DNA from: Betaproteobacteria bacterium
GTDB lineage: Bacteria; Pseudomonadota; Gammaproteobacteria; Burkholderiales; Casimicrobiaceae
NCBI GenBank assembly: GCA_029884335.1
Contig: JAOUIA010000025.1
Location: forward strand, 1-47,427
Direction of reading: 5' to 3'
DNA length: 47,427 nucleotides
The notes under the pieces are model-generated. The model had not been told where the DNA came from. It did not search any database and was given only the letters and a program-made list of their open reading frames with translations. Position numbers and translations under genes: made by a program. Positions 1,802-22,826 of this stretch are shown piece by piece. The first letter of the stretch is position 1. The number at the start of each line of letters is the position of its first letter.

Positions 1802-3154
1802 TCAGGGGCGCGTCGGATCGAAGTGCTTGCGCAGGCCCTGCCAGCAGCGGTAGTACTCCTGCTGCAGCTCTCCCGACTCCAGCGCGAAGCGCGTCGGGAA
1901 GTACGGCAGGCAGGTCTCGAACATGAAAGCCATCGTGTCGCGCAGGTACGCGGGCTTGCCGGTGTCTATGTTGCTCTGCTCCTCGAACGTCGTCGCGTCG
2001 GGGCCGTGGCCGGTCCAGCAGTTGTGCAGGCTCGCGCCGCCGGGCACGAAGCCCTCGGCCTTGGCGTCGTACGCGCCGCGGATCAGCCCCATGAACTCCG
2101 AGGCGACGTTGCGGTGGAACCACGGCGGGCGGAACGTGTTCTCCATCGCGAGGATGCGCGGCGCGAACACGACGAAGTCGATCGCGTCGACTCCCGGCGC
2201 GGCGCTCTGCGACTGCAGCACGAGGAAGATCGACGGGTCGGGGTGGTCGTAGCTGATCGAGCCGATCACGTTGAAGCGCTTGAGGTCGTAGCGGTACGGC
2301 GCGTAGTTGCCGTGCCAGGCGACGACGTCGAGCGGCGAGTGGTCGATCGCCGCGGTCCAGCGCTCGCCCATGAACTTGGTGGTGAGCTCGAAGGCGCCCT
2401 CGCGGTCCTCGTAGGCGGCCACAGGCGTCTCGAAGTCGCGCGGGTTGGCGAGCCCGTTGCTGCCGATGGCGCCGAGATCGGGAATGCGGAACAGCGCGCC
2501 GAAGTTCTCGCAGATGTAGCCGCGCGCCTCGCCGTCGGGCAGGTCGACGGCGAAGCGCACGCCGCGCGGGATCACGGCGAGCTCGGTCGGGCCGGCCTCG
2601 AGGACGCCGAGCTCGGTGCGGAACCGCAGCCGCCCCTGCTGCGGCAGCACGAGCAGCTCGCCGTCGGCGTTCGCGAAGTAGCGGCCCTCCATCGACTTGT
2701 TCGCGGCGTACAGGTGCACCGCGCAGCCCGCCATCGCCGCGGCGCCGCCGTTGCCGGCGTAGGTGACCCAGCCGTCGATCCACTCGGTGGGCTGCGCCGG
2801 GATCGGCAGCGGGTCCCAGCGCAGCTGGTTGGGCGGCACGGGTTCCGTCCCGAATGCGCTGACGACGCGACCGGCGTCGACGCGCCGGAACGGCTCGTGC
2901 ATCGCGCCCGGCCGGATGCGGTAGGTCCACGTGCGGCGGTTGAACCAGCGCGGCATGGTGAACGCGGTACCGGAGAGCTGCTCGGCGTACAGCCCGTACG
3001 GGCACTTCTGCGGCGAGTTGCGCCCCACCGGCAGCGCGCCGGGCAGCGCCTCGGTGGCGAACTCGTTGCCGAAGCCCGTCATGTAGGCGAGCGGGCGCTG
3101 CGAAGCGGGACTCGCCTGCGCGCTGCGGGCGGGAGCGGTGGTGGCGTGGTTCAT
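1802..3154 (-). CDS. hmgA: homogentisate 1,2-dioxygenase
   Basis: Opens the ring of homogentisate to give maleylacetoacetate, the central step of tyrosine, phenylalanine and 3-hydroxyphenylacetate breakdown. The 450-residue product matches the family length. The non-haem iron ligands are visible as His347 (FHRN), Glu353 (SEFMG) and His383 (TGHGPD), with the spacing of the human enzyme (His335, Glu341, His371). The internal Met in 'MNHATTAP' was chosen as start because the open frame upstream runs into a palindromic repeat (3184-3211) and is not protein-like. Genes for maleylacetoacetate isomerase and fumarylacetoacetase are not in the window. It lies downstream of a flavin hydroxylase pair that could make its substrate. 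Confidence 0.95.
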
Positions 3155-3183
3155 GTCCGCGGGATCTCCGTGGCGGAAAGACA

Positions 3184-3211
3184 CTGGGCCCCCGCCTGCG
3201 CGGGGGCGACG
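3184..3211 (-). repeat. single REP-like palindromic element between the DUF2783 gene and hmgA
   Basis: A lone copy, in the reverse orientation, of the 28-nt palindromic repeat that recurs four more places in this window. Its core has changed to CCCCCGCC/GCGGGGG but still folds as a hairpin. It sits in the 82-nt gap inside an otherwise compact operon, so the transcript would carry the hairpin between the two cistrons. Confidence 0.8.
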
Positions 3212-3236
3212 AAACAAGCAACCTTCGCAAGCGGCA

Positions 3237-3443
3237 TCACCGTTGCGGGCCGACGCCCTCGCGCGCGGCGGCGAGCGCCTGCGCGAGGACCTCGGGGTCG
3301 CCGACGTGGTTCGCGAGCAGCAGCACGAGCTTCGCGTTGACCAGCGCGCTCTCCTCGTCGGAGAGGTCGCGGTGCGCGCCGATCAGCTGCTCGTAGAAGT
3401 CGTCGGGGGACGGCAGGTTCGGTTCGGTGTTGAGCGTGCCCAT
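3237..3443 (-). CDS. DUF2783 small protein, probable coupling partner of the adjacent flavin hydroxylase (MhaB-like)
   Basis: A 68-residue acidic helical protein with the DUF2783 pattern ([20 protein letters not shown], then [14 protein letters not shown]). It starts 11 nt after the stop of the FAD monooxygenase and precedes hmgA. In Pseudomonas putida U, 3-hydroxyphenylacetate 6-hydroxylase is known to need a flavoprotein (MhaA) plus a small coupling protein (MhaB) encoded next to it. Size, order and the hmgA context fit that pair, so I infer a coupling role; the sequence itself shows no catalytic motif. The ATG at 3443 was preferred over upstream in-frame starts because the homologous part begins at 'MGTLNTEPN'. 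Confidence 0.8.
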
Positions 3444-3454
3444 CGCGCCCCCGT

Positions 3455-5101
3455 TCAGTCGTTGCACGTCGCATGCGCGATCGCCGCGCGCACGCGCATC
3501 GCGTCGAACGCCCGCCACCGCGCGGCGACGTGCTGGTCGGGCCGCAGCAGGACCACCGTCCCGACCCGGCCGTCGTAGCGCCGGGCCGCCAGCCCCTCGG
3601 CGTCCTCGATGCGCACAGCACCCGGCGTCGCGCCGCCGCCGACCTGCACCACGCGGCAGGGGATCGCGGCGCCGGCGAGCGCGGCGACCTCACCCGCGGG
3701 CACCGCGTCGCCGAACGCCAGCAGCGCGAACTCGCCGCCGAGGTGGTCGAGCAGCCACTCGCCGCGCGGCCCCCTGACCGGCGCGTCGGCCGCCGGCGCG
3801 CCGGGGATCATCGCGCCGGGACCGCGGGGAAAATCGGCGTCGGCATCGGGCGTGTTGAGCGGCGAGCCGGCCAGCACGGCCGGCACCGAAAGCCGTCCGC
3901 TGTTGACCAGCCCGCGGGCGAACGCGTGCTTCTTCGCGAGCTCCAGCACGGCGTCGCGAAACGTGCGCGACACCCTGCTCTTGGGCGTGATGAAGTCGGT
4001 GGCGCGCGTCGAATTGAGGAGGTTCTCGTCGGCCGCGAACGTCCGCTCGGCGTCGTAGCTGTCGAGCAGCCGCTGCGGCGCCTTGCCTGCTAGCACCAGC
4101 GCGAGCTTCCACGCGAGGTTGTCGGTGTCCTGGAAGCCGCTGTTGGCGCCGCGCGCGCCGAACGGCGAGACGAGGTGCGCGGCGTCGCCGGCGAAGATCA
4201 CGCGACCGTGGCGGAACGACTTCATGCGCCGGCACTGGAACGTGTAGACGCTCGCCCACTCGATCTCGAAGCGCGCGTCGGGACCGAGCATCGCGCGAAG
4301 CCGCGGCAGGATGCGCTCGGGCTTCTTCTCCTCCTCGGGGTCCGCGTCCCAGCCGAGCTGGAAATCGATGCGCCACACGTCGTCGGCCTGCCGGTGCAGC
4401 AGCACCGACTGGTTCGGGTGGAACGGCGGGTCGAACCAGAACCAGCGCTCGGTCGGGAAGCTCGACTGCATGTGGATGTCCGCGATCAGGAAGCGGTCGC
4501 GGAACACCTGGCCCTCGCTCTCCAGCCCGAGCATGTTGCGCACCGGGCTGCGCGAGCCGTCGCAGGCGATCAGCCAGTCGGCGTGCAGCGTGTACGGGCC
4601 GTCGGGCGTGTCCACCGTCAGCTCCACGCGCTCGCCGCGCGGTGTTGCGCGCGTCACCTTGCTGGACCAGCGCAGGTCGATGTCTTCCAGCTCGCTCGCG
4701 CGATCGACGAGGAACTCCTCGAGCCAGTACTGCTGCAGGTTGACGAACGCGGGGCGGCGGTGCCCGGCCTCGGGCAGCAGGTTGAAGCGGTAGGCGAGCG
4801 CGTCGCGGAAGAACACGCGGCCCACGTTCCAGCCGACGCCCTTGTCGACGATGCGCTGCCCCACGCCGAGGCGGTCGAGGATCTCCAGCGCCCGCTTCGC
4901 GTAGCAGATCGCGCGCGAGCCCACCGACACCGTCTCGTCTTCGTCGAGCACGACGACCGGCACGCCGTGCTGCGCGAGGTCGATGGCCGCGGCGAGCCCG
5001 ATCGGTCCCGCGCCGACGACCACGACCGGGTGCCGCACCGGCCCCGCGTCCTGGTCGGGGGAGCGGACGTAGGGGTAGATCGGGTTCGTGTACGTCTTCA
5101 T
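3455..5101 (-). CDS. FAD-dependent aromatic hydroxylase, group A (MhaA/MhpA-like)
   Basis: A 548-residue flavoprotein monooxygenase. The N-terminal Rossmann motif is GAGPIG at 30-35, the DG motif at residues 181-182 (CDGSRSP), and the FAD ribityl-binding GD motif at 305-306 (FAGDAAHLVSPFGARG). The C-terminal ~110 residues form the thioredoxin-like extension typical of MhpA and related phenol hydroxylases. Expected reaction: NAD(P)H- and O2-dependent ring hydroxylation. The order hydroxylase, DUF2783, hmgA suggests 3-hydroxyphenylacetate to homogentisate; 3-hydroxyphenylpropionate or a resorcinol-type substrate cannot be excluded. The start 'MKTYTNPIYPY' was chosen over an upstream in-frame Met because the earlier residues derive from intergenic sequence near a repeat pair. 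First gene of the block. Confidence 0.88.
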   Translation of the reverse strand: MKTYTNPIYPYVRSPDQDAGPVRHPVVVVGAGPIGLAAAIDLAQHGVPVVVLDEDETVSVGSRAICYAKRALEILDRLGVGQRIVDKGVGWNVGRVFFRDALAYRFNLLPEAGHRRPAFVNLQQYWLEEFLVDRASELEDIDLRWSSKVTRATPRGERVELTVDTPDGPYTLHADWLIACDGSRSPVRNMLGLESEGQVFRDRFLIADIHMQSSFPTERWFWFDPPFHPNQSVLLHRQADDVWRIDFQLGWDADPEEEKKPERILPRLRAMLGPDARFEIEWASVYTFQCRRMKSFRHGRVIFAGDAAHLVSPFGARGANSGFQDTDNLAWKLALVLAGKAPQRLLDSYDAERTFAADENLLNSTRATDFITPKSRVSRTFRDAVLELAKKHAFARGLVNSGRLSVPAVLAGSPLNTPDADADFPRGPGAMIPGAPAADAPVRGPRGEWLLDHLGGEFALLAFGDAVPAGEVAALAGAAIPCRVVQVGGGATPGAVRIEDAEGLAARRYDGRVGTVVLLRPDQHVAARWRAFDAMRVRAAIAHATCND

Positions 5102-5173
5102 CGGAGCACGGGAACGGGGACTACCTGTGACTCGCCCGGAGGTCTTTCCGTTGCTGAACACCCTCCGCGCATT

Positions 5174-5270
5174 CGTCGTCCCCGCGCAGGCGGGGACCCA
5201 GTGTCTTTGGATTCCACGAGCGAACAGCCGGACCGCAAGTCACTGGGTCCCCGCCTGCGCGGGGACGACG
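5174..5270. repeat. REP-like facing pair between the MBL-fold gene and the hydroxylase gene
   Basis: Two copies of the 28-nt repeat face each other: forward at 5174-5201 and reverse at 5243-5270, with 41 nt between. Each contains the hairpin core CCCCGCGCAGGCGGGG or its complement. This is the REPIN or BIME arrangement. The 245-nt gap (5102-5346) separates the end of the eleven-gene operon from the start of the hydroxylase-hmgA block, so the pair may end the upstream transcript. I see no clear promoter in the gap. Confidence 0.9.
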
Positions 5271-5346
5271 ACGGTTGCATGCGCTGGACGCACACAAGGC
5301 AGATACAGCGTCATGAAGCCTCACCATCAGTCCCCAGTCCCGCCTC

Positions 5347-6300
5347 TCATCCCTCCAGCGCCTCCCACATCTCCTTGTCCCGCTTCGCCGTCCAGATGCG
5401 CGGGTCCGGGAACTTCGTCGCCTCGTCGTAGGCGCGCGTGACGTCGAACGGCAGGCAGTGGTCGAAGATGACCCAGTGGCCGAAGCGCGGCTTGAGCGTG
5501 TCGTAGGTCTCGCGGTACACGGTCCGCAGGTCCTTGCCCGCCGCTGCGCCGCGCTTCACGGACTCGAACATCGCGGTGACGAATGCGCGCGTGGCGTCGA
5601 GGCCCGCCTGCACGGTGGCGGGCGTCTGCAACGCGGGGCCGCGCCCGGGCACCAGCTTCTCCGGCTTCAGCGCGGCGATCGCGTCGAGCGTGGCCGGCCA
5701 GTCCGTGAGGTAGGCGTCGCCGGTGTAGGGCGTGGCGTCGTACTCGACGAGGTCGCCGGAGAACAGCACCTTGTCCTGCGGCAGCCAGACGACGGTGTCG
5801 CCCTTCGTGTGGCCGCGCCCCAGCTGCATGATCTCCACCTGCAGCTTGCCCAGCCGGAGGGTCATGCGCTTCTCGAACACGAGCGTGGGCCACGTGAGGC
5901 CGGGCACCGACTCGACGGCGCGGAACAGGCGCGGGAAGCGGCCGATCTCGCTCGCCTTGTCGGCTTCACCGCGCTCGACGATGAGGTCGTAGGTGTCGCG
6001 GCTGGCGATGACGTGGTCCGCGCCGTACGCCGAGGCGCCGAGCACGCGCACGGCGTGGTAGTGCGACAGCACGACATAGCGGATCGGCTTGTCGGTGACC
6101 TCGCGCACGCGCCGGATGACGTCCTGCGCCATCACCGGCGTCGCCTGCGTGTCGATCACCATCGCCGCGTCGTCGCCGACCACGATGCCGGTGTTGGGAT
6201 CGCCCTCGGCGGTGTAGGCGTAGGCGTGGTCGGAGAGCTTGTCGAACGAGACCCGCTTTTCGACCAGGTCCGCCTGCGATGCGAAAGCCTTCTGGTTCAT
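5347..6300 (-). CDS. metallo-beta-lactamase-fold protein with a partly degenerate metal site
   Basis: A 317-residue MBL-fold protein, last gene of the operon. The usual HxHxDH zinc motif reads HYHAVR at 80-85, so His80 and His82 remain but the site-2 Asp and His are Val84 and Arg85. His164 (GRGHTKGD) and Asp183 (SGDLVEY) are present, while the final GHG histidine is Arg220 (PGRGP). At most the first metal site is intact. It may bind one metal, act as a hydrolase with altered chemistry, or have lost catalysis. The ATG overlaps the stop of the preceding dehydrogenase by four bases, implying coupled translation. Substrate unknown; I believe related betaproteobacterial proteins share the HYHAVR variant, but cannot check. 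Confidence 0.85.
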   Translation of the reverse strand: MNQKAFASQADLVEKRVSFDKLSDHAYAYTAEGDPNTGIVVGDDAAMVIDTQATPVMAQDVIRRVREVTDKPIRYVVLSHYHAVRVLGASAYGADHVIASRDTYDLIVERGEADKASEIGRFPRLFRAVESVPGLTWPTLVFEKRMTLRLGKLQVEIMQLGRGHTKGDTVVWLPQDKVLFSGDLVEYDATPYTGDAYLTDWPATLDAIAALKPEKLVPGRGPALQTPATVQAGLDATRAFVTAMFESVKRGAAAGKDLRTVYRETYDTLKPRFGHWVIFDHCLPFDVTRAYDEATKFPDPRIWTAKRDKEMWEALEG

Positions 6301-7385
6301 GCAGTGGGTCCTTCCAGAACGTCGTGGAGTCCGAGCGATGCGGCGCAGGCGTCGAGGGCGGCGAGCGTGCGGCGCGGCATCGGGATGCCGCCCCGGTCGC
6401 GCACGGCAGCCGCGAGGCGCTCGGGCTCGCCGGGCAACAGGATACCTTCCCCCGGATCGGCGGGCGGCGAGGCGCGAACCCAGCCGGCCAGGGTTGCGAT
6501 CTCGCGCTCGAGCGTCGACGCCCCCGCCAGCCGCGCCGGATCGAAGGCCAGCGTGAGCATGTTGTTCACGATGGTGTCGTTGAAGCGGCCGTCCTGTGCG
6601 CCTCCGCCGGTCAGCGCGCCGCCGAGGAGCTCGCACATCACCGACAGCGCCCAGCCCTTGTGCTGCGCGAACGGCAGGAGCGCGCCGGTCGGGGCACCGC
6701 GCCACAGCACGCCCGGGTCGGTCGTCGGTCGTCCCTGCGCATCGAGCAGCAGGCCGGGCTCGAGCTCCCGCCCTTCGTCGACGGCAACGCGCGTCTTGCC
6801 GAGCGCGATCGCGCTGGTCGCGTAATCGAGCACGAGCGGGTGCGGGGCGTGCGGGACCGCCACGCAGAACGGATTCGTCGAGACGCGCGCGTCGAGCCCG
6901 CCGTGCGGCGCGACCCACGCGCGCGAGCGCACGTTGACGAAGTGGATCGAGACCAGTCCCGCCTCTGCGCAGCGCTCGCCCCACTGCCCGATGCGGCCGA
7001 GGTGGTGCGTGTTGGCGAGGCCGACGACGGCGCAGCCGTGCGCGAGCGCGCGGGCGATGGCGAGGTCGATGGCGGCCTCGCCGATCGTGCGCCCGAAGCC
7101 CATCTGTCCGTCGAGCGCAACTAGGGCGCCCGTGTCGCTGACCACGCGCGGGCTGCGCCCGGGCGCCACCAGAGCGCGGCGCACGGACTCGACGTACTGC
7201 GGCGCCAAGCCGATGCCGTGCGAATCGTGGCCATAGCGATTGGCGTCGACCAGCGCCGCCGCGATGTTGCGCGCCTCGGCGGCGTCGCAGCCGACGGCCC
7301 CGAACAGGCGCGCGCCCCACGCGACGAGCCGGGACGGCGGCACCCGGACGGCGTCGGCAGGAGCGGCGATCGGCGCAGCGGTCAT
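6297..7385 (-). CDS. Ldh-family NAD(P)H-dependent oxidoreductase (malate/L-lactate dehydrogenase type 2)
   Basis: About 362 residues of the Ldh_2 family, which reduces or oxidises 2-keto/2-hydroxy acids (malate, sulfolactate, ureidoglycolate, diketogulonate). Family landmarks: 'GHDSHGIGL' near residue 52, the catalytic-histidine segment NTHHLG at 125-130, and 'STNPFCVAVP'. The enzyme is cytosolic. The start at 7385 (MTAAPIAAP) leaves 4 nt after the HAD gene; an alternative ATG at 7409 would overlap that gene. The stop overlaps the MBL start (ATGA). In this operon it probably oxidises or reduces a hydroxy-acid intermediate; the exact substrate is not readable. Confidence 0.88.
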   Translation of the reverse strand: MTAAPIAAPADAVRVPPSRLVAWGARLFGAVGCDAAEARNIAAALVDANRYGHDSHGIGLAPQYVESVRRALVAPGRSPRVVSDTGALVALDGQMGFGRTIGEAAIDLAIARALAHGCAVVGLANTHHLGRIGQWGERCAEAGLVSIHFVNVRSRAWVAPHGGLDARVSTNPFCVAVPHAPHPLVLDYATSAIALGKTRVAVDEGRELEPGLLLDAQGRPTTDPGVLWRGAPTGALLPFAQHKGWALSVMCELLGGALTGGGAQDGRFNDTIVNNMLTLAFDPARLAGASTLEREIATLAGWVRASPPADPGEGILLPGEPERLAAAVRDRGGIPMPRRTLAALDACAASLGLHDVLEGPTA

Positions 7386-7389
7386 TGCA

Positions 7390-8067
7390 TCATGGCGAGC
7401 GTGCCTCATGATAGCGGACGAACTTCGGGAGCTTCAGAAGTTCCGGCACGCTCTCCAGCGTCGCGACGACGGGCACCTCGGGCGGAAAGCGGTTGTGCGA
7501 ACCCGCGGGCACGACGCCGAGGAAAGCCACGCCGAGGTCGCGCGCTGCCTCACACTCGGTCAGCGCATCGCCGACCGCGAGGACTTCGCCCGGCGCATAG
7601 CCGCCCTCGTGCAGGATCCGCTCGAACGCCACACGCTTGACCGGCGGGGCGCCGCGCACGCTGCGGAACCACCCGGCGAGCCCGCGCAACGCGACGATCT
7701 CGCACAGCTCGTCGTGCGGCGTGCCGCTGACGAGGTGCAGGTCCATGGCGGCGTGCGCGTGCTCGAGCAGGCGCCGGGCCCCTGGGACGAACGGGCACGA
7801 CACGACGGCGTCGAAGACGCGCTCGCGGAAGCGCGCCGCCAGTGGCGCGACGTCTTCCGGCGCACCGGCGCGGCCGAAGAACGCGCGCTCGATGTGCGCG
7901 AGCTTGTCGGTGCGCGTCACGCCGCCGTGGCGCTCGACGTAGTCGACGATCGCTGCGAGCCGCGCCGGATCCGTGCCGGGGTAGAGGTCGGCGAAGGCTT
8001 GCGTCTTCAGCGCCGCGGATTGCAGGATGACGCCGTCGAAGTCGAGCAGCAGCGCACGCAGCTTCAT
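7390..8067 (-). CDS. HAD-superfamily phosphatase, beta-phosphoglucomutase/phosphoglycolate-phosphatase-like
   Basis: A 225-residue HAD hydrolase with all four motifs: Asp9 and Asp11 (LLLDFDGV), the motif II Ser/Thr in 'LVSGTP', the motif III Lys in 'PVKRVAFERIL', and motif IV 'AVGDALTECEAA'. The all-helical cap between motifs I and II marks subclass I. It should hydrolyse a small phosphate ester in the cytosol. Its ATG overlaps the IclR stop (ATGA). A phosphatase between a CoA pathway and an acid dehydrogenase is unusual; it might dephosphorylate a phosphorylated sugar-acid-like intermediate or clear a toxic by-product. Substrate unknown. Confidence 0.88.
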   Translation of the reverse strand: MKLRALLLDFDGVILQSAALKTQAFADLYPGTDPARLAAIVDYVERHGGVTRTDKLAHIERAFFGRAGAPEDVAPLAARFRERVFDAVVSCPFVPGARRLLEHAHAAMDLHLVSGTPHDELCEIVALRGLAGWFRSVRGAPPVKRVAFERILHEGGYAPGEVLAVGDALTECEAARDLGVAFLGVVPAGSHNRFPPEVPVVATLESVPELLKLPKFVRYHEARSP

Positions 8068-8885
8068 GCGGCCGCGACCACGCGCCCCGCGCGCGGCAGC
8101 TCCGCTCCCCGCGTGCGCAACGGCCACAATTCGGAGATCTCGGCGGCCGACCGACACACGAGCGGCGCAAGTTCGAGGACGCGCTCGTCCGTGAGGCGGA
8201 CGCTCGGCCCCGCCACGCTGACGGTCCCGCTCGCCGCTCCGCCGCTGCCCGAGCGAATGACCGCTGCGACCGCCGTGACGCCCGGTTCGGCTTCGTTGAC
8301 CGCCAGGCCGTAGCCGCGCGCCCCCGTCGCAGCGATCTCCCGCAGCAGCCCGTCCATCGAGCGCACCGCGTTCGGCCCGTAGGCGTCGGCCCGGGTGAAG
8401 TTGCCCTGCTTCAGCACGTTGTGCACCGCGCGTTCGGGCTCGAGCGTGGCGAGCCAGGCCTTGCCGCTCGCGGTCGCGTGCAGCGGCACCGTGTTGGTGG
8501 CAAGCGAAGGCTGGTACATGAGGCCGGCCGTCGCCCCCTGCGCCTGCGCAACCCACACCAGCGAGTCGCCGTCCACCACCGCCAGCCGGATGAACTCGCG
8601 GGTCTCCTGCGCCAGGCGGTCGAGCAGCGGCTGGCAGATGTCGGGGATGCCCGTCGCGACGTAGTACCGCTGACCGAGGATCGCGAGCCGCATCGTCAGG
8701 CGATAGAAGCCCGTGTCGGGATCCTGTTCGACCCAGCCCAGTTCGGTCAGCGTCGCCAGCAAACGGTGCGCTCCGCTCTTCGGGAGTTCGAGCCGCTCGG
8801 CGATCCCGCCGAGCGGCAGCTCACCCGCCTCGCCGGCGAGCAGCTCGATGATGGAAAGGCAGCGTTCTGCGGGAACGTGCGCCAT
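8064..8885 (-). CDS. IclR-family transcriptional regulator
   Basis: 273 residues with an N-terminal winged helix-turn-helix (about 8-60, including 'LPLGGIAERLELPKSGAHRL') and a C-terminal IclR effector domain (about 80-250, 'LHATASGKAWLA'). IclR proteins control catabolic operons for aromatic and organic acids and bind a pathway metabolite. It starts 6 nt after the shikimate-dehydrogenase-like gene and its stop overlaps the HAD start, so it is embedded inside the operon it probably controls instead of being divergent, which would give autoregulation. A possible target is the promoter/dyad upstream of the permease gene (15545-15584). Confidence 0.93.
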   Translation of the reverse strand: MAHVPAERCLSIIELLAGEAGELPLGGIAERLELPKSGAHRLLATLTELGWVEQDPDTGFYRLTMRLAILGQRYYVATGIPDICQPLLDRLAQETREFIRLAVVDGDSLVWVAQAQGATAGLMYQPSLATNTVPLHATASGKAWLATLEPERAVHNVLKQGNFTRADAYGPNAVRSMDGLLREIAATGARGYGLAVNEAEPGVTAVAAVIRSGSGGAASGTVSVAGPSVRLTDERVLELAPLVCRSAAEISELWPLRTRGAELPRAGRVVAAA

Positions 8886-8891
8886 GGGTCG

Positions 8892-9704
8892 CTACAGGTC
8901 GCGGGCGGCGGGGTCGAAGAAGCTCACGATCGCCTCGGCCTGCCCGGCGTGCATGTCCCGCCCGTTCACCCACGCGCAGCCGCACGCCTGAGCATGCCGC
9001 AGGATCGCGGTCGGCCCGTCGGCGATGATCACGTCGCCGACGAGGGTGTCGGGCGCGAGCGGACCGAGGTCGGCCGGCATCCCGTCGCCGGGCTTCATGC
9101 CGATCGTCGACGCGTTCACCACCATGTCGGCATCCGCGGGCGGCGCCGTCGCCTCGGCGAAGCGGCAGCCCGGGAAGGCGGGGCGCAGCCGCTGCGCCAG
9201 CGCCGCGGCGCGACCGGCCTGCGGATCGATCAGCGCGATCGACGCGACGCCGGCCTCGGCCAGCGCGCAGGCGATCGCGCTGCCCGCGCCTCCTGCGCCG
9301 AAGATCGCGACGCGACGCCCGGCGACGCGCTGGCCCTTGCGCTGCGCGGCGCGCACGAAGCCGGCTCCGTCGAACATGTCGCCGGTCCACGTGCCGTCCG
9401 CTTCGCGCCGCAGCGCGTTGAGCGCGCCGATGCACTGCGCGGTCGCGCCAAGGCGCGTGGCATGCGGCACGGCGCGGGCCTTGAAGGGTACGGTGATGAG
9501 CAGTCCGTCGAGATTGCCCAGCGCCTTGAGCGCCGGGAAGACCGTGTCGAACCGGTCCGGCGCAATCTGCGCGGGGAACATGATCGCGTTCGCTCCGCGC
9601 GTCGCGAACGCCTCGGTGAACACGCTCGGCGAGCGAACCTGCGCGATGGGATCGCCGACGATGGCGTACAGGCGCGTGGCGCCGTCGATGCGCACTGCGG
9701 TCAT
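8892..9704 (-). CDS. shikimate dehydrogenase-family oxidoreductase (AroE-like, catabolic context)
   Basis: 270 residues with the AroE two-domain layout. In the substrate domain the catalytic Lys75 (TVPFK), Asn96 (GALNAL) and Asp112 (GDMFDG) are present. The dinucleotide site GAGGAG is at about 136-141. The first serine of the substrate-carboxylate SxS motif is replaced by Val23 (AQVRSPS), which argues against plain shikimate as substrate and towards quinate/shikimate-like or other hydroxycyclic acids. The gene overlaps the CoA-transferase stop (ATGA) and sits in a catabolic operon, so it is unlikely to be the biosynthetic aroE. It would oxidise or reduce a hydroxyl or keto group on the pathway's ring or chain intermediate. 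Confidence 0.87.
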   Translation of the reverse strand: MTAVRIDGATRLYAIVGDPIAQVRSPSVFTEAFATRGANAIMFPAQIAPDRFDTVFPALKALGNLDGLLITVPFKARAVPHATRLGATAQCIGALNALRREADGTWTGDMFDGAGFVRAAQRKGQRVAGRRVAIFGAGGAGSAIACALAEAGVASIALIDPQAGRAAALAQRLRPAFPGCRFAEATAPPADADMVVNASTIGMKPGDGMPADLGPLAPDTLVGDVIIADGPTAILRHAQACGCAWVNGRDMHAGQAEAIVSFFDPAARDL

Positions 9705-11317
9705 GCCTTCTCCCTTCGGGCCGCGTGCCAGCGCGCGACGCGCGCCGAGCGATACCCTCGCGGCTTGGCGTGCACGTCGGCGGCCAGGCCCATCGTTCCG
9801 GGATCGAAGATGCGCGGGTCCATCGCGCGCAACTCGCGCGCGACGGCCGGACGGAAGCCCATGTGCGCGATCACGTCGCGTTCCGCGTCGAGGCCCGGGG
9901 CGATCTCGAAGAGCTCCAGCCCTTCGGCGCCGATCCGGAACACCGCGCGCTCGGTCACGAAGAGCACCTCCTGGGCGCGCTCCCGGCCGATGCGCGCGCT
10001 GTAGCAGATCTGCTCGAGCTTGGGCACGAACTTCCGGTGCCGCCCCTCCTTGCGGATGACGGTGCGGCCGCTCTCCCACGCGACGTCGAGGTCGCCGGCA
10101 GTGAGCGTCCCGCCGAAGACGACGCAGCGCGCGTTCTGGGCGATGTTGATGAACCCGCCCACGCCGATGATCCGGTCGCCGAAGCGACTCACGTTGACGT
10201 TGCCCTGCGCATCCACCTCGGCGAACGAGAGGAACGCGAGGTCGAGCCCGCCGCCGTCGTAGAAGTCGAACTGCGCCGGCTGCTCGATCATCGCGGCGAA
10301 GTTCTGCCCGCCGCCCGAGTCGCGCCCGGTGATCGGCGCGCCGCCGATGATCCCCTGCTCGTTCGTGAGGTAGACGTCGTCGAGCAGCCCTTCCTCGGCG
10401 GCGATCGTCGACAACCCGGTGGAAACGCCCGCCCCGAGGTTGCAGACCGCGCCGGGGTAGAGCTCCATCGCAGCGCGGCGCACGATCACCTTGCGCGGGC
10501 CGAAGGGCAGCGGCTTGATCGCGTCCAGCGGCACGCGCAGCTCGCCCGAGTAGCTCGGGTCGTACTCGGTGGCGTAGGTCTGCCGCTGCTGCGGCTCGAC
10601 CACGACGAAGTCGACGAGGATGCCGGGGATGCGAACGTCCTTGGGCGGCAGCGTGCCGCGCCGCGCCATGCGCTTCACCTGCACGACGACGATGCCGCCC
10701 ACGCGACGCGCGGCCTGTGCCATGGCCAGCATTTCGCCGAGCACGGCCTCGTGCTCCATCGTCACATTGCCGTCCTCGTCGGCTGTCGTTCCACGCAGGA
10801 AGGCAACGCTCACCGGAACCGGCCGGAAGAGCAGCCACTCCTCGCCGGCGAGGTTCACGACTTCGACGAAGTCCGGCGGCGTGCGTGGACTCTGACGCGA
10901 GCCCTGCTGCCTCGGATCGACGAACGAGTGCAGCCCCGTCTTCGTGATGAGCCCGGGCCGCCCGGCGGCCATGTCGCGCATGAGTTGCGAGAGCACTCCC
11001 TGCGGCAGCGTGTACGCCTCGATCTTGTCTTCCGCGGCGAGCCGCACGAGCCCCGGCGAATCGACGAGCGCGCTGGTGATCGCCCGCTTGAGCAGTCCCT
11101 CGTGCGCGAGGTGCGACGCGCCCAGCAGCGCGCGGTCGCCGACGCCCACCACGCTCACCGACGTCAGCCCGCGCGGCTGGCCCTCGGCGAGGAAGCGCCG
11201 CTCGACCGCCGCCAGCAGCGCCTCGGGCACCGAGTGTCCGCCGCCGGATCCGCTGATGAGGATCGCATCGCCGTCTTCGACCAGTCGGGCCGCTTCGTCC
11301 GCGGTGATCTTTTCCAT
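9701..11317 (-). CDS. family I CoA-transferase, fused alpha/beta subunits (acetate/3-oxoacid type)
   Basis: A 538-residue single-chain CoA-transferase. The N-terminal half holds the CoA-binding 'ISGSGGGHSVPE' segment; the C-terminal half holds the catalytic Glu320 in NEQGIIGG, which forms the glutamyl-CoA thioester in this family. It moves CoA between acyl-CoA and a carboxylic acid, so it is the likely activation step for the substrate imported by the ABC genes upstream. It starts 34 nt after the hydratase gene and overlaps the AroE-like start (ATGA). Acceptor acid unknown; relatives are annotated as acetate, propionate or 3-oxoacid transferases. Confidence 0.92.
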   Translation of the reverse strand: MEKITADEAARLVEDGDAILISGSGGGHSVPEALLAAVERRFLAEGQPRGLTSVSVVGVGDRALLGASHLAHEGLLKRAITSALVDSPGLVRLAAEDKIEAYTLPQGVLSQLMRDMAAGRPGLITKTGLHSFVDPRQQGSRQSPRTPPDFVEVVNLAGEEWLLFRPVPVSVAFLRGTTADEDGNVTMEHEAVLGEMLAMAQAARRVGGIVVVQVKRMARRGTLPPKDVRIPGILVDFVVVEPQQRQTYATEYDPSYSGELRVPLDAIKPLPFGPRKVIVRRAAMELYPGAVCNLGAGVSTGLSTIAAEEGLLDDVYLTNEQGIIGGAPITGRDSGGGQNFAAMIEQPAQFDFYDGGGLDLAFLSFAEVDAQGNVNVSRFGDRIIGVGGFINIAQNARCVVFGGTLTAGDLDVAWESGRTVIRKEGRHRKFVPKLEQICYSARIGRERAQEVLFVTERAVFRIGAEGLELFEIAPGLDAERDVIAHMGFRPAVARELRAMDPRIFDPGTMGLAADVHAKPRGYRSARVARWHAARREKA

Positions 11318-11351
11318 GTCGTTGCGTTCGCTCCGCTGTGCCCCGGGCCGC

Positions 11352-12137
11352 TCATCGTCCGAGGAAACCGGGCGCGCGCTTCGCGAAGAAAGCGGCCACG
11401 CCCTCGTGCAGGTCGTGCGAATCGAAGATCGCCTGCTGGGCCACGGTGGACCGCGACAGTGCGGCCTCCTGCGGGAGATCCTGCGCGAGGTCGACCAGAT
11501 CCTTCGCCAGCTTGTTGGAGAGCGGTCCGCGCGCGACGATCGTCGCCGCGAGCGCGCGCGCCGCGTCGAGCGCCGAGCCTTCGCTGGCGACGCGATTCAC
11601 GAGCCCCCACGCCAGCGCTACGTCGTCGGCGACCGTATCGCCGGTGAACAGCATCTCCTTCGCTCGCGCGGGTCCCACGAGTCGCGTGAGCCGAATCGAG
11701 CCGCTGCCCGCCAATCCCCCCAGTCGCGACTCCGTCAGGCCGAGCGCGACACCGCGACGAACGACGCGAAGATCGCACGCAAGTGCCAACTCCAGGCCGC
11801 CGCCGAGCGCCGGACCGTCGATGGCCGCGATCGTCGGCATGGGCAGGCCCGCGAGGTTGCGCAGCACCATGTCTTCGAACAGGATCTTGTGCTCGCTCGC
11901 GTCTGCGCGGAGGTGCGCGAACTCCCTGATGTCGCTGCCCGCGCAGAAGGCCCGCGCGGTTCCGCCGTGAAGGATCACGCAACGCACGTCCTGCCGCGCA
12001 GCGACCTCGCCCAGCGCGCGATGCAGCGCGCGCAGCAGCGACTTGTTCACGAGGTTGAGGGGACCGCTGCTGATGCCGATCTCGGCCACCGCTTCGCGGT
12101 GGCTCACCGTCACCGTTCCAGCTTCGTCGCGGGTCAC
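11352..12137 (-). CDS. enoyl-CoA hydratase/isomerase family protein
   Basis: 261 residues of the crotonase family. The first catalytic Glu is present in GGGLE and the second in 'LTESRLGG', where the usual QPE is replaced, so the active site differs from the two hydratases at 235-1793 and the substrate probably does too. The GTG start at 12137 overlaps the stop of the ABC ATPase (GTGA), a coupled start; no ATG gives a better fit. With MaoC upstream and the CoA-transferase downstream it forms the CoA-ester core of this operon. Hydratase, isomerase or hydrolase activity are all possible in the family. Confidence 0.88.
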   Translation of the reverse strand: MTRDEAGTVTVSHREAVAEIGISSGPLNLVNKSLLRALHRALGEVAARQDVRCVILHGGTARAFCAGSDIREFAHLRADASEHKILFEDMVLRNLAGLPMPTIAAIDGPALGGGLELALACDLRVVRRGVALGLTESRLGGLAGSGSIRLTRLVGPARAKEMLFTGDTVADDVALAWGLVNRVASEGSALDAARALAATIVARGPLSNKLAKDLVDLAQDLPQEAALSRSTVAQQAIFDSHDLHEGVAAFFAKRAPGFLGR

Positions 12138-12967
12138 GGCGCGACCCTCTCCGGCGCGTCGAGCCCGTGCAGCACGCCCATGCGCTCGAAGTGGCGATGG
12201 ATCCTGTCCACGTACGCGCTGAACTCCGGCGCATCGCCCAGCACGATCGGACGCGGGCGCGGGAGCTCGACGCGCAGCTCCTCGACAACCTCGCCGGGAC
12301 TCGGGCTCATCACCAGGACGCGGTCGGAAAGCCCCACGGCCTCCTCCACGCTGTGCGTGATGAAGAGCACCGTGGGCCGGCGACGGAGCCAAAGCGTCTC
12401 GAGGTCCATCCGGACCTGCAGGCGCGTCAGCGCGTCGAGCGCGCCGAACGGCTCGTCCATCAGCAGCACGGATGGGTCGTGCACGAGAGTGCGGATCAGC
12501 GAGACGCGCTGGCGCATCCCGCCCGACAGCTGGCGCGGGTACTTGTGCATCGCGTGGGTCAGCCGCAGCTGCTCGAAGAGCTCCTTCGCCCGCGCCTCCA
12601 CCTGCTTGCGCGGCAGGCCGCGGATGTCCGAGTGCAGCATCACGTTGTCGAAAGCCGTGCGGAACTCGAGAAGCAGGTGGTCCTGGAACGCGATGCCGAC
12701 GTCCGTGATCGGCCGGGTCACCGACGCCCCGCCGACCAGGATGTCGCCGTGCGAGCGCTTGAGCAGCCCGGCCACCATCAACATCAACGTGCTCTTGCCG
12801 CAGCCCGATGCGCCGACCACCGAGATGAACTCGCCGGCCGCGATGTCGACGGTGACCTCCTTCAGCGCGAGGAACGGGTGGTCTCCCTCCTCGTCGAACG
12901 TCTTCGAAACCTTGCGGATCGCGATGCCGGCGCCCGTCGGCGCCTGCGGCTGGGGCACGGCGCTCAT
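12134..12967 (-). CDS. ABC importer ATPase, nitrate/sulfonate/taurine type
   Basis: 277 residues of an SsuB/TauB-like ATPase. Walker A GASGCGKST spans residues 52-60, the Q-loop is 'AFQDHLLL', the signature LSGGMRQR starts near 147 and Walker B 'VLLMDEP' ends near 173. It energises the importer formed with the permease at 14572-15456 and the binding protein at 13502-14506. The three transport genes are interrupted by the MaoC gene, a sign that transport and catabolism evolved as one unit. Its ATG overlaps the MaoC stop and its own stop overlaps the next GTG. Confidence 0.95.
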   Translation of the reverse strand: MSAVPQPQAPTGAGIAIRKVSKTFDEEGDHPFLALKEVTVDIAAGEFISVVGASGCGKSTLMLMVAGLLKRSHGDILVGGASVTRPITDVGIAFQDHLLLEFRTAFDNVMLHSDIRGLPRKQVEARAKELFEQLRLTHAMHKYPRQLSGGMRQRVSLIRTLVHDPSVLLMDEPFGALDALTRLQVRMDLETLWLRRRPTVLFITHSVEEAVGLSDRVLVMSPSPGEVVEELRVELPRPRPIVLGDAPEFSAYVDRIHRHFERMGVLHGLDAPERVAP

Positions 12968-13488
12968 CCGCGCGGCCCCTCCGGAGCCCGTCCACCCGAA
13001 GCAGCCACCGCCGCGAGCGGCACCTTGGAGACCAGCAGCACCTTGCGTCCCCGCTGCACCTCGACCTCGTCCTGGTTGACCAGCGACACGTCGAACGTCG
13101 CGATGGCCTGCGTGGGACGCGAGCGGCTGTCGCGCAGCTCGGCGAGCCGGTAGTTCACGAAGAGCGTGTCGCCGATGAAGATGGGCCCGACGAACTTCCA
13201 GTCGGTGATGCCGAGAAAGGCGATCGCGGTCTCCCTGAGCTCGCCGGTCCGCGCCCACATGAGCCCGTGCGCGTAGGCGAGGCCAAGCATGCCCTGCGCG
13301 ACCCGGCGGCCGAACTGGCTGCTCTTCGCGTAGACGTCGCTGGTGTGAAGCTCCGAATAGTCGCCCGTGAGGCCGGAGAATCCCACCAGGTCGGCGTCGG
13401 TGATCGTGCGACCGGGGCTGCGGAAGGCCATCCCGACGAACAGGTCGTCGTAGCGGTAGCCCAGCCTCGGCCGCTCGCGTGCTGTCAC
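12964..13488 (-). CDS. MaoC-like (R)-enoyl-CoA hydratase
   Basis: 174 residues with a single hot-dog fold. The MaoC catalytic dyad is visible as Asp43 and His48 in GDYSELH, followed by the conserved 'RRVAQGMLGLAY'. It should hydrate an enoyl-CoA with R stereochemistry or, as in the C-terminal half of PaaZ, hydrolyse a ring such as oxepin-CoA. The neighbouring paa operon has only the aldehyde-dehydrogenase half of PaaZ (PaaN), so this gene is a candidate for the missing ring hydrolase; alternatively it acts only inside its own operon. It starts 13 nt after the binding-protein gene. Confidence 0.9.
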   Translation of the reverse strand: MTARERPRLGYRYDDLFVGMAFRSPGRTITDADLVGFSGLTGDYSELHTSDVYAKSSQFGRRVAQGMLGLAYAHGLMWARTGELRETAIAFLGITDWKFVGPIFIGDTLFVNYRLAELRDSRSRPTQAIATFDVSLVNQDEVEVQRGRKVLLVSKVPLAAVAASGGRAPEGPRG

Positions 13489-13501
13489 CTTGCCGCCCTC
13501 T

Positions 13502-14506
13502 TCAGCGCTTGCACGCCCGCATCTGCGCCGCGGGAGGCAGGTAGTCGTTGGTGTAGTAGCTCTTCGGGTCCTGCCCCTCCGGCAGCAGCTTCACCTCGGA
13601 GAGCAGCGCCTGCGTGCGCGTCCAGTGCGCGTCCTCGGCCTTGCCGATGTACTGCGCGCCGCCGCTGCAGAACAGAGGCGTGATCGCGGCGAGCTCGGCG
13701 GCGGCCACCTTCTCGTTGACGTCCGGGAACACCGCCTTCACGTGCTGGATCGTCTTCGCCGGGTTGTCGAGCGCGAAGCTCCACCCCTTGAGGCTCGCGG
13801 CGATGAAGCGGCGCAGCACGTCGGGGTTCTCCTTGATGAAGGCCTCGCTCGCGAAGATCGACGTGCTCACCGTCGGCACGCCGTAGTCGGCGAAGCGGTA
13901 GTTGTCGGTCTGCGCACCCTGCTGCTCCAGCTGGATCTGGTAGGCGTCCATCGAGCCCAGGATGGCGTCGACCTGGCCCTGCAGCAGCGACGGGACCATC
14001 GAGGTCGGCGGCATGTTGATCAGCGTCATGTCCGCTTCCTTGAGCCCGTTCGCCTTGAAGAACAGCGGCAGCATCGTCGTCTGCGACGAGCCGGACGGCA
14101 CCCCCACCTTCTTGCCCACGAGGTCCTTGGGCGAGCGGATGTTGGTCTTCTTGAGCGCCGAGACCTGGTTCGGGTTCGACTGGTAGACGGTCGAGACGAT
14201 CTTCATCGGCGCACCCTTCGCGATCAGCTGCGAAACCGTGACGGCGTCGGCGTAGGCGAGCTGCGAGCGGCCGCTGGCGACGAGCTGCGCCGTGTTGCCG
14301 GAGCCGTTGCCCTGCAGGACCGTGACGTCGAGCCCGGCGTCCTTGTAGTACCCCTCGCCGACGGCGGCGGCGAAACCGGCGTTGGCGCCGCCCGCGACCC
14401 AGTTGAGCTGGAACGTGAGCTTCGTCTGCGCCAGGGCGCCGGCGCTCAAGGTGAGCCCGGCGGCGAGGACGCCGAGGGTCGTCAGGTGTCGCATCGTTGC
14501 ACGCAT
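13502..14506 (-). CDS. periplasmic ABC substrate-binding protein, NMT1/THI5-like (SsuA/TauA type)
   Basis: 334 residues with a Sec signal (basic start, Leu/Ala core, cleavage after 'AGALAQ' near residue 26) and the NMT1/THI5 fold ('NWVAGGANAGFAAAVGEGYYKDAGLDV' region, residues ~35-60, and 'VGVPSGSSQTT'). Such proteins deliver aromatic or heterocyclic acids, sulfonates, pyrimidine precursors or nitrate to the importer. A good ribosome site, AGAGGAAAC, precedes the ATG. It is the second gene of the operon, 65 nt after the permease. The ligand cannot be assigned; the downstream CoA-transferase argues for a carboxylic acid. Confidence 0.92.
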   Translation of the reverse strand: MRATMRHLTTLGVLAAGLTLSAGALAQTKLTFQLNWVAGGANAGFAAAVGEGYYKDAGLDVTVLQGNGSGNTAQLVASGRSQLAYADAVTVSQLIAKGAPMKIVSTVYQSNPNQVSALKKTNIRSPKDLVGKKVGVPSGSSQTTMLPLFFKANGLKEADMTLINMPPTSMVPSLLQGQVDAILGSMDAYQIQLEQQGAQTDNYRFADYGVPTVSTSIFASEAFIKENPDVLRRFIAASLKGWSFALDNPAKTIQHVKAVFPDVNEKVAAAELAAITPLFCSGGAQYIGKAEDAHWTRTQALLSEVKLLPEGQDPKSYYTNDYLPPAAQMRACKR

Positions 14507-14571
14507 GGTGTTTCCTCTCGAGAAGGGTTGACGGGTGCGCCGCGGCCAGGGAACCCCGGCCCTGCCGCGGG

Positions 14572-15456
14572 CTAGCTGTTGTTGGCTCGTTGCCACGGCG
14601 TCATCGCCCACTCGCTGAACTCGACCGCGTAGTTGATGAGGATGCCGATGAAGGTGAGCACGACCAGCACCGCGAACGTGAGCTCGATGTCCATCGTGCT
14701 GGTCCCGCGCAGGAGCACGTAGCCAAGCCCCTTGTTCGCGCCGACGAACTCGGCCACGATCGCGGCGGTGGCGGCGATCGTCGCAGAGGTCTTGATGCCT
14801 GAGAAGATCACCGGCAGCGCGGCGGGCACGCGCAGGTAGCGGAAAGTTTGCCAGCGGGTCGCGCCCATCGACTGGGTGAGGTACAGCAAACGGGTGTCGA
14901 GGATCTGGAAGCCGCTGATGCTTGCGAGCAGCAACGGGAAGAACGTCATCAGGACGGTGAGCAGCACCTTGGATTCCATCCCGAAGCCGAGCCAGACGAG
15001 GAACAGCGGTGCCACGGCGATCTTGGGCACGAGCTGCAGCAGCATGATCGGCGGGTAGAGGATCTGCTTGGCGAACAGCGACAACGCGATCAGCAGCCCC
15101 AGCGGGATCGCGGTGACGACCGTGAGCCCGAAGCCGAGCAGGATCTCGGTGAGCGTCACCAGCGAGTGGTCCCAAAGCATCGGCGCATCCGCCACGACCC
15201 GGGAGAACACGGCGCCGGGGCCCGGCAGCAGATAGGCAGGAATGCTGAACAGCTTCACGGCGAGCGCCCAGAGGGCCACGATGGCCGCGAAGGTCAGCGG
15301 CGGAAGCAGGTTCCAGCCGATGCGGCGCAGCGTGCGGGCCGTCTTCGACCGCGGCCTGCGCCCGGACGCTTCGAACGACGGCGCCGGGAGCGGAGCCTCC
15401 CAGTTGCCGCGACGGTCGAGTCCGGGTGCGGAGTTCGACGTCAGGTTCGATGCCAT
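14572..15456 (-). CDS. ABC importer permease, SsuC/TauC type
   Basis: 294 residues with about six membrane helices and the permease EAA-like loop ('QSMGATRWQTFRYLRVPAAL', then 'IVAEFVGANKGLGYV'). A proline- and arginine-rich cytosolic N-terminus of about 50 residues precedes the first helix. The ATG at 15456 is preferred over in-frame Met codons upstream because it carries a strong GGAGGAGG ribosome site 7-8 nt away. It is the first gene of the eleven-gene operon; the 180-nt gap before it holds a plausible promoter. It forms the inner-membrane channel with the ATPase at 12134-12967. Confidence 0.93.
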   Translation of the reverse strand: MASNLTSNSAPGLDRRGNWEAPLPAPSFEASGRRPRSKTARTLRRIGWNLLPPLTFAAIVALWALAVKLFSIPAYLLPGPGAVFSRVVADAPMLWDHSLVTLTEILLGFGLTVVTAIPLGLLIALSLFAKQILYPPIMLLQLVPKIAVAPLFLVWLGFGMESKVLLTVLMTFFPLLLASISGFQILDTRLLYLTQSMGATRWQTFRYLRVPAALPVIFSGIKTSATIAATAAIVAEFVGANKGLGYVLLRGTSTMDIELTFAVLVVLTFIGILINYAVEFSEWAMTPWQRANNS

Positions 15457-18206: not shown

Positions 18207-18665
18207 TCACGCCTCCTCGATCACGTGCCCCTTGATCCGGTAGCTCTTGCCCCGGAACAGCGCGATCTTCTCGCCGCGTTGATTCGTCACTTCGATGTCG
18301 TACACGCCGGTGCGTCCGGACGCGCTGCGCTCGTGCGCGCGCGCATTGAGCTCGTCCCCCTCGCGCGCGGGCGCGATGAAGTCGATGCCGCAGCCCGAGG
18401 CCACCGTCACCAGGTTGTAGCTGTTGCAGGCGTAGGCGAACGTGCTGTCGGCCAGCGTGAAGATGAAGCCGCCGTGGCAGATCTCGTGGCCGTTCAGCAT
18501 GTCGCGGCGCACGCGCATCGCGAGGTGCGCGGTGCCCGGCCCGACGTCGACCAGGCGCATGCCCAGCGCCTGCGACGCGTGGTCGTTCGCCCACATGTGG
18601 TCGGCCACGCGGCGCGCCAGCGCCGCGGCTTCCATGGGGCTGCGAAACGGGTGGTGCTCACCCAT
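18207..18665 (-). CDS. paaI: hydroxyphenylacetyl-CoA thioesterase
   Basis: 152 residues with a hot-dog fold. The catalytic segment is HGGFIFTLADSTFAYACNSY, with the conserved Asp at the head of the helix. PaaI removes CoA from dead-end hydroxyphenylacetyl-CoA or ring-opened intermediates, protecting the cell's CoA pool. The ATG at 18665 overlaps the paaH stop by eight bases (ATGGGTGA), a coupled start; a second in-frame Met lies ten codons on but is less well placed. Confidence 0.94.
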   Translation of the reverse strand: MGEHHPFRSPMEAAALARRVADHMWANDHASQALGMRLVDVGPGTAHLAMRVRRDMLNGHEICHGGFIFTLADSTFAYACNSYNLVTVASGCGIDFIAPAREGDELNARAHERSASGRTGVYDIEVTNQRGEKIALFRGKSYRIKGHVIEEA

Positions 18666-20211: not shown

Positions 20212-20216
20212 CGGGG

Positions 20217-21008
20217 CTAGCGTCCCGTGAAGCGCGGCGCGCGCTTGGCCGCGAACGCCGCCACGCCCTCGCGGTAGTCGTCGCCGAAGCCCAGCTCGCG
20301 CTGCATGTCCCGCTCGACGTCGAGCTGCTGCTCCAGCGTGCGCGCGGCCGAGCCGTGGATCGCCCGCTTGATCGCGGCGAGCCCCTTCGTCGGCCCGCTC
20401 GCGAACTGCGCGAGCAGCGCCTCGGTCGCCTCGGGCAGGTCGTCGTCCTCCACCCACTTCCAGATCAGCCCCCACGCGGCCGCGTCTTCGGCCGAGAGCT
20501 TCTCGCCGGTCAGCGCGAGGCCCAGCGCGCGCGCCGTGCCCACGAGGCGCGGCAGGAAGTACGTGCCGCCGGAGTCCGGCACGAGCCCGATGCGGCAGAA
20601 CGCCTGGATGAAGGTCGCCGACTTCGCCGCGATCACCACGTCGCAGGCAAGCGCGAGGTTGGCGCCCGCCCCGGCGGCGACGCCGTTGACCGCGCAGACC
20701 ACCGGCATCGGCAGAGTGCGCAAGCCGAGGATCAGGGGCTTGTAGTTGCGCTCGATCGAATCGCCGAGGTCCACCGGCGCGCCGCCCGGCGCCACCGCGC
20801 GGTCCCCGAGATCCTGGCCGGCGCAGAAGCCGCGCCCCGCACCGGTCAGCAGCAGCACGCGCGCGGAGGCGTCCCCGCGCACGTTATCGAGCGCGTCGCG
20901 CACCTCGGCGTGCATCGCGTCGTTGAAGCTGTTGAGCCGCTCGGGGCGGTTCAGCGTGATGCGCGCGATGCCGTCGGCGGCGTGGAAGAGGATGTGGTCG
21001 TAGCTCAT
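20217..21008 (-). CDS. paaG: 1,2-epoxyphenylacetyl-CoA isomerase
   Basis: 263 residues of the crotonase superfamily. The first hydratase Glu is absent (GAGANLALACD), while the isomerase Asp is present in GLVPDSGGTY, the signature of PaaG rather than a hydratase. It converts ring-1,2-epoxyphenylacetyl-CoA to oxepin-CoA and also shifts double bonds later in the route. It lies 111 nt after paaN, a gap in which I see no gene or clear signal, and 5 nt before paaH. Confidence 0.94.
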   Translation of the reverse strand: MSYDHILFHAADGIARITLNRPERLNSFNDAMHAEVRDALDNVRGDASARVLLLTGAGRGFCAGQDLGDRAVAPGGAPVDLGDSIERNYKPLILGLRTLPMPVVCAVNGVAAGAGANLALACDVVIAAKSATFIQAFCRIGLVPDSGGTYFLPRLVGTARALGLALTGEKLSAEDAAAWGLIWKWVEDDDLPEATEALLAQFASGPTKGLAAIKRAIHGSAARTLEQQLDVERDMQRELGFGDDYREGVAAFAAKRAPRFTGR

Positions 21009-21119
21009 GGCATGAGGGGCCCCGGGGGCTTGGGCAAGGGTACCGGACGAAGGCGTCCTGGCGGAACAGGAAGCTGCGCGCCCCGGTCCCCGGCCCTCAC
21101 CCGCCGATGCCGCCTCGTT

Positions 21120-22784: not shown

Positions 22785-22826
22785 GTTCGGTGTCTCCTGC
22801 CTGCGATGTGGAACTCTAGCACTCCG

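Follow-up and report, generated by a model that had tools for sequence, protein, structure and literature searches.

What do the eleven closely packed genes at positions 5347 to 15456 of a contig from the family Casimicrobiaceae encode, and do they act as one unit on one substrate? The window analysed here is the whole of that contig (JAOUIA010000025.1; C27 in our numbering), 47,427 bases of a 3.66 Mb genome in 120 contigs that is 95.6% complete. An initial annotation had read the genes as a single operon joining an ATP-binding cassette (ABC) importer to a coenzyme A (CoA)-dependent route for a carboxylic acid, with a hydroxylated alicyclic acid as one guess. Our analysis suggests that two neighbouring modules were read as one, and that the first may be a cassette, with a CoA branch, for a small acid resembling an acid sugar; we give this account about an even chance of being right.

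Genes were called with a codon model and assigned by Pfam and NCBIfam hidden Markov model (HMM) searches, which confirmed eleven genes on one strand and the families proposed for them. In transcription order, followed by the next gene downstream, they are:

14572 to 15456, minus strand: ABC importer permease, first core gene (Pfam BPD_transp_1, 96.5 bits; 73-88% identical in relatives).
13502 to 14506, minus strand: NMT1/SsuA-type periplasmic binding protein (Pfam NMT1, 180 bits; orthologue in 11 of 64 family genomes, its own included).
12964 to 13488, minus strand: MaoC-type hydratase, GTG start (Pfam MaoC_dehydratas, 64.6 bits; in 8 of 10 core relatives).
12134 to 12967, minus strand: ABC ATPase (Pfam ABC_tran; top NCBIfam models SaoA-, TauB- and SsuB-like, all below cut-off).
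11352 to 12137, minus strand: crotonase-fold, enoyl-CoA hydratase-like protein, GTG start (Pfam ECH_1, 143.9 bits; top PDB sequence 5zai).
9701 to 11317, minus strand: YdiF/FadX-type CoA-transferase (PDB YdiF 2ahu, 431 bits; 84-89% identical in core relatives).
8892 to 9704, minus strand: AroE-like dehydrogenase of the shikimate dehydrogenase (SDH) family, probably NAD-dependent, not a shikimate dehydrogenase (HMMs, alignment, model with predicted local distance difference test (pLDDT) score 91.7, fold match 4k28).
8064 to 8885, minus strand: IclR-family regulator, last gene of the conserved core (Pfam IclR_C and HTH_IclR; at the core loci of 10 of 10 relatives).
7390 to 8067, minus strand: HAD hydrolase, optional companion (HMM; homologue (50%) by the AroE-like gene in locus L087).
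6297 to 7385, minus strand: Ldh_2 dehydrogenase, probably part of the aromatic unit together with MBL (NCBIfam NF007504, 396.9 bits, cut-off 336).
5347 to 6300, minus strand: MBL-fold hydrolase, first gene of the mbl-fmo-DUF2783-hmgA unit (HMM; adjacency counts).
3455 to 5101, minus strand: FAD monooxygenase of the PRK08132 subfamily, partner of MBL, outside the reported operon (849.5 bits, cut-off 416).

The ten junctions from permease to mbl measure 65, 13, -4, -4, 34, -4, 6, -4, 4 and -4 bases: five genes overlap the one before by 4 bases and two more follow at a distance of 6 or 4, matching the seven tight junctions counted initially.

The limits of the unit become visible when the locus is compared across the family. 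Our sample held 64 genomes, the window's own among them, and the binding-protein orthologue is present in 11, hence in ten relatives. Eight genes (permease, NMT1-type binding protein, MaoC, ATPase, crotonase, YdiF-type CoA-transferase, AroE-like and IclR) form a core that is complete in eight of the ten; the permease, binding protein, ATPase, AroE-like and IclR genes occur at all ten loci, and those for MaoC, crotonase and CoA-transferase at eight. The core of G027 was counted though it is split over two contigs, with iclR and the CoA-transferase and AroE-like genes on the separate one, and in G043 the CoA-transferase match shifts frame and the AroE-like match carries one TGA. G051 and G053 keep the importer, AroE-like and IclR genes, with a kinase and a class II aldolase replacing the CoA genes at the locus; each holds a CoA-transferase elsewhere, with MaoC-, crotonase- and FabG-like neighbours. 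Given that the order of the core genes is conserved in other genomes, the eight-gene arrangement exceeds chance, and the interleaving of importer genes with CoA-dependent catabolic enzymes noted in the window is kept there too.

The expectation that gene set and order would recur elsewhere thus holds for the core, in eight of ten relatives and in Caballeronia, and fails for the other three genes: HAD is found at one of the ten relatives' core loci, and Ldh and MBL at none, the contig of G059 being uninformative there as it stops just past iclR. The later steps once proposed, which would act on a hydroxy acid and possibly on a phosphate ester, depend on genes that are not in the conserved core.

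Genomes without the core indicate where MBL and Ldh belong. MBL is matched in 42 of the 64 genomes, the FAD monooxygenase in 40 and both in 38; in 37 of these 38 the two genes are adjacent (less than 500 bases apart), and in the last they sit on separate contigs. The core is missing from 31 of the 37. The genes mbl, FAD monooxygenase (fmo), DUF2783 and hmgA (1802-6300) are a unit conserved in the family, and MBL is part of this downstream aromatic cluster, not of the core. Ldh_2 matches occur in 30 of the 64 genomes; the nearest (57% identical) is in G025, which is without the core and has the Ldh orthologue directly ahead of mbl-fmo-DUF2783-hmgA, an arrangement seen in this one other genome only. 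Ldh probably goes with MBL and the aromatic unit, and HAD is an optional companion of the core. In G062 and G004 mbl comes after paaK with nothing known in between. G045, the closest relative, has its core on a different contig, and its 7.7 kb gap from paaJ to mbl (L193:6150-13848) contains cytochrome-oxidase-like genes. Because the mbl/fmo unit, the G062 and G004 junctions and the G045 site all stand without the core, the core looks as if it was inserted into an aromatic island, and the paaJ-mbl site seems to be a spot of module exchange. The first module, a probable catabolic cassette, then runs from 15456 to 8064, perhaps to 7390, and the second, from 7385 downward (ldh, mbl, fmo, DUF2783, hmgA), belongs to the aromatic island that hosts the first.

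As to what the cassette might degrade, the AroE-like dehydrogenase belongs to the SDH superfamily by its fold (Foldseek) and by its Lys65 and Asp102, and it has neither the SxS carboxylate motif nor the Tyr215 contact of shikimate dehydrogenases; the best NCBIfam AroE equivalog reaches 142.9 bits, below the cut-off of 252. We aligned 17 AroE-like rows with E. coli AroE and YdiB, using E. coli AroE numbering. The Ser14 position is Val in 16 rows, the window's protein included, in keeping with the earlier remark that the first SxS serine is missing; the Thr101 position is Phe in 16 rows, the Asn149 position is Asp or Glu in 16, and the Tyr215 position is Tyr in none, while Lys65, Thr61, Asn86 and Asp102 are retained in all 17 and Gln244 in 14. 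We take the roles of the aligned positions to be carboxylate contact (SxS, Tyr215), catalysis (Lys65/Asp102) and recognition of the NADP phosphate. On this alignment, the replacements suggest that the enzyme is NAD-dependent and that its substrate has no carboxylate placed as in shikimate. The best PDB match by both sequence and fold, 4k28 from P. putida (39% identity), is an SDH-family protein that likewise has Val in place of the first SxS serine, and for which the records consulted give no function.

These residues bear directly on the guess that the core degrades a hydroxylated alicyclic (hydroaromatic) acid whose ring the AroE-like enzyme oxidises. The fold is that of shikimate/quinate dehydrogenases with the catalytic Lys and Asp kept, the window's core sits in an aromatic island, and the E. 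coli K-12 row ydiB-aroD-ydiF-ydiO offers a parallel, placing a gene of the SDH family close to those for a YdiF-type CoA-transferase and an MFS protein. YdiB itself, however, retains both shikimate-type serines and Thr101, aroD intervenes, and the importer, MaoC and crotonase are absent from the row. A dehydroshikimate-dehydratase-like match was found at none of the 78 loci described below, the probe being a partial sequence, and the core is linked to tetronate genes. With Ser14, Thr101 and Tyr215 changed we set aside a hydroaromatic substrate as first choice; the guess is weakened, keeping the fold and the catalytic pair on its side, and we now consider it unlikely.

The core is tied to genes for 3-oxo-tetronate, a C4 acid sugar, by neighbourhood and by presence and absence. 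With model NF043035, 10 of the 11 core-bearing genomes have the 3-oxo-tetronate kinase (OtnK), compared with 6 of the 53 others (Fisher p 5e-7); within the genus the figures are 9 of 9 and 1 of 13 (Fisher 2e-5). These tests ignore phylogeny, and the Fisher and binomial figures assume independence. The kinase adjoins the core in five of the 11 genomes, where 0.0015 would be expected per 20 kb. None of eight loci from a more distantly related AroE-like group carries a tetronate gene. In G046 a D-erythronate dehydrogenase (DenD; 480, cut-off 325) lies inside the core, and past iclR come a 3-oxo-tetronate kinase and a 2-oxo-tetronate isomerase, both above their cut-offs, and a decarboxylase slightly below its own (220.1, cut-off 250). 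DenD is present in 9 of the 11 core-bearing genomes, the counts of DenD, OtnI and LtnD covering core-bearing genomes only. The tetronate pathway, in the accessible portions of its descriptions, uses LtnD or DenD, OtnI, OtnK (DUF1537) and OtnC and ends in dihydroxyacetone phosphate (PMC12540250, PMC10580937). The relatives resemble it in that genes above the DenD, OtnK and OtnI models adjoin or sit within the core, and OtnK tracks the core; the window's locus differs, with no OtnK, OtnC, OtnI or DenD among its eleven genes and with an AroE-like enzyme, a CoA-transferase and two hydratases foreign to that pathway. Elsewhere in the window's genome OtnK is on contig C101 and OtnI on C106.

A second line of evidence concerns the CoA-transferase. 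Beyond the family, a profile scan of named genomes gave 264 matches, of which the best 80 were used, making 78 loci, several of them the same contigs as family genomes already counted; context was read by tblastn with a chosen probe set, which shows only the genes it includes, and neighbours are lost where contigs are short. By this measure the CoA-transferase is present at 56 of the 78 loci and MaoC at 54. At 44 loci the CoA-transferase gene is immediately upstream of the AroE-like gene, and a 4-base overlap is possible in 39 of these 44 pairs. The 44 span alpha-, beta- and gammaproteobacteria, their record titles including Burkholderiales, Hyphomicrobiales, Pseudomonas and Enterobacterales. 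Distances among the two proteins correlate (r 0.87, Mantel test on 43 of 45 pairs, two omitted for stops or short length). Such an adjacent and mostly overlapping pair points to two enzymes that act together, and it is one that can be tested.

Around this pair the gene content varies. Caballeronia and relatives have the same core gene order, the plasmid copy of Caballeronia sp. NK8 carrying hypothetical and fumarylacetoacetate-hydrolase-family proteins between crotonase and CoA-transferase. Loci of Azospirillum and Bradyrhizobium hold six of the genes (importer, MaoC, crotonase, IclR), with the CoA-transferase and AroE-like genes nearby in a different order, and some loci carry acyl-CoA dehydrogenase and FabG-like genes. 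An order-level search (399 genomes sampled, E 1e-60) returned 35 matches, mostly to other AroE-like clades. In E. coli the AroE-like island is rare (1 of 5426 genomes) and consists of SDR, crotonase, MFS, CoA-transferase, AroE-like, TIM barrel, GH88, SDR and MaoC genes (L174:3949-14183); it lies beside allose and phosphonate genes, as does a CoA-transferase/AroE-like island with a GH88 gene in E. albertii (L126). A second AroE-like group (L051, L054, L055; about 40% identity) is accompanied by other transporters and by large enzymes of unassigned substrate, and both SxS serines are gone in the single row checked.

The remaining core proteins fit the same general chemistry. The CoA-transferase aligns with YdiF (PDB 2ahu) over residues 4-512 and is of that type, the Glu of the 'ltvEtGpiGG' stretch, which we take to be the active-site residue, being aligned; it falls short of the staphylococcal FadX equivalog (403.6 bits, cut-off 750). 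The crotonase is closest among PDB sequences to the 3-hydroxypropionyl-CoA dehydratase 5zai, and both it and MaoC are like short-chain hydratases. With binding protein, permease and ATPase all present the importer is of the NMT1/SsuA type; no NCBIfam equivalog cut-off was reached for any ligand type, and the PDB proteins that the binding protein matches, of pyrimidine-precursor and taurine types, do not single out a ligand. In most relatives a 244-residue protein (L059:7312-8043), absent from the window, lies between crotonase and CoA-transferase. Pfam and NCBIfam give no match for it, nor does a PDB profile search up to E 1; its model (pLDDT 91.2) matches tandem alpha/beta-barrel proteins (TM about 0.5) that include a bacterial chalcone isomerase as well as putative monooxygenases, and these matches do not indicate a function.

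Because of these enzyme families, the cassette would be expected to combine uptake, NAD-linked oxidation, CoA exchange and hydration or dehydration. The importer would take up a small polyhydroxylated acid, either an acid sugar of some four or five carbons or its lactone, and the AroE-like enzyme would oxidise a secondary hydroxyl with NAD+. The CoA-transferase may swap CoA from a short acyl-CoA onto the acid or a product of it, MaoC and crotonase may add water to the short CoA ester or take it away, and IclR would sense the substrate or an intermediate. At loci with a 3-oxo-tetronate kinase and a class II decarboxylase beside the core, the oxo-acid could be carried on to dihydroxyacetone phosphate. 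Gene content, the limits of the modules, their conservation, the altered pocket residues of the AroE-like enzyme and the association with tetronate genes are observed directly; the substrate, the reactions and their sequence are inferred. An acid sugar seems to us a likelier substrate class than an alicyclic acid, a preference held with about even confidence.

Several observations weigh against an acid-sugar cassette, besides the limits already attached to the kinase tests and the DenD counts. Nothing in the data fixes the substrate. The window's own genome (G000) has no DenD match, and its kinase is on a separate small contig with a piece of a TRAP transporter; this copy is weak support, because similar TRAP-kinase sets occur in G004, G006 and G008, all without the core. 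LtnD exceeds its cut-off in none of the core-bearing genomes. Among 18 importer-bearing loci, 11 have no tetronate gene within the available flank, and of the seven that do, five are family genomes already seen and two lie outside the family. Other AroE-like clades occur with NIPSNAP and a 4-hydroxyphenylpyruvate-domain protein annotated as a sugar isomerase, or with GH88. Downstream of iclR in G031 are TcuA and TcuB (tricarballylate), both above cut-off (L040:9083-11660).

The last of these, with the hydratases of short-chain type and the acyl-CoA dehydrogenase and FabG-like genes that some loci carry, would also suit a route that salvages short acids, hydroxylated or unsaturated. In such a route the AroE-like enzyme would come in late or work on a by-product, and the tetronate neighbours would reflect shared ecology only. 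The tight coupling of the CoA-transferase to the AroE-like gene argues against it, as do G051 and G053, where the AroE-like gene stays with importer and kinase and no CoA genes are at the locus, and we judge such a route improbable. Far less probable is a single eleven-gene operon for one substrate with MBL, Ldh and HAD performing later steps: its junctions are tight through mbl, with 4-base overlaps at iclR-had and ldh-mbl, and the genes may be co-transcribed in the window's genome, but we rejected the eleven genes as one unit on the mbl-fmo adjacency without the core, the ldh-mbl order of G025, the G062, G004 and G045 sites, and the single HAD among ten relatives.

The acid-sugar cassette has a partial precedent. 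A literature search with most subscription journals outside its scope gave no description of the core gene set, in line with the initial view that the combination is not a described pathway. Klebsiella michiganensis oxidises deoxyribonate via acyl-CoA intermediates, according to the accessible part of PMC6365646, and by analogy this route is a precedent for CoA chemistry on an acid sugar. As far as that part of the text goes, the two have a CoA-transferase in common, there one near propionate CoA-transferase in a sugar-acid cluster, and the deoxyribonate cluster differs in its CoA-synthetase, beta-hydroxyacyl-CoA dehydrogenase, thiolase and glycerate kinase, with no mention of shikimate, enoyl-CoA or MaoC.

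The island around the core is itself readily recognised. Upstream is a phenylacetate cluster (18207-28054) of paaA, paaC, paaD, paaE, paaN, paaG, paaH, paaI, paaK and a pcaF/paaJ-type thiolase, with paaX on the opposite strand from the rest; all of these, the thiolase included, reach curated cut-offs except paaH (642.4 bits, 669.4 needed), and a small gene at the paaB position had no match at the threshold used. Downstream of MBL follow the FAD monooxygenase, DUF2783, hmgA (homogentisate dioxygenase, above cut-off) and two crotonases. A Rhodospirillaceae metagenome-assembled genome (L135) has an AroE-like gene surrounded by homologues of paa genes, fmo, DUF2783 and mbl. Within the window a promoter scan found 0 sites against 0.4 expected and terminator-like sites numbered 5 against 4.3 expected; no RNA families or tRNAs were detected, and phage matches were all below 60% identity, the five listed being at 28-30%.

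A wider and distinctly more tentative proposal is that the core represents a CoA-dependent route for C4-C5 acid sugars that is spread among alpha-, beta- and gammaproteobacteria. Its dehydrogenase would be a remodelled SDH-family enzyme that oxidises a sugar acid or lactone with NAD and is obligately paired with a YdiF-type CoA-transferase, and the route could be wired either to the 3-oxo-tetronate kinase path or to a MaoC/crotonase CoA branch. Genes for YdiF-type CoA-transferases and for AroE-like dehydrogenases are common and frequently take their names from unrelated reactions, and the pairing would stop AroE-like genes of the core type from being annotated as shikimate dehydrogenases.

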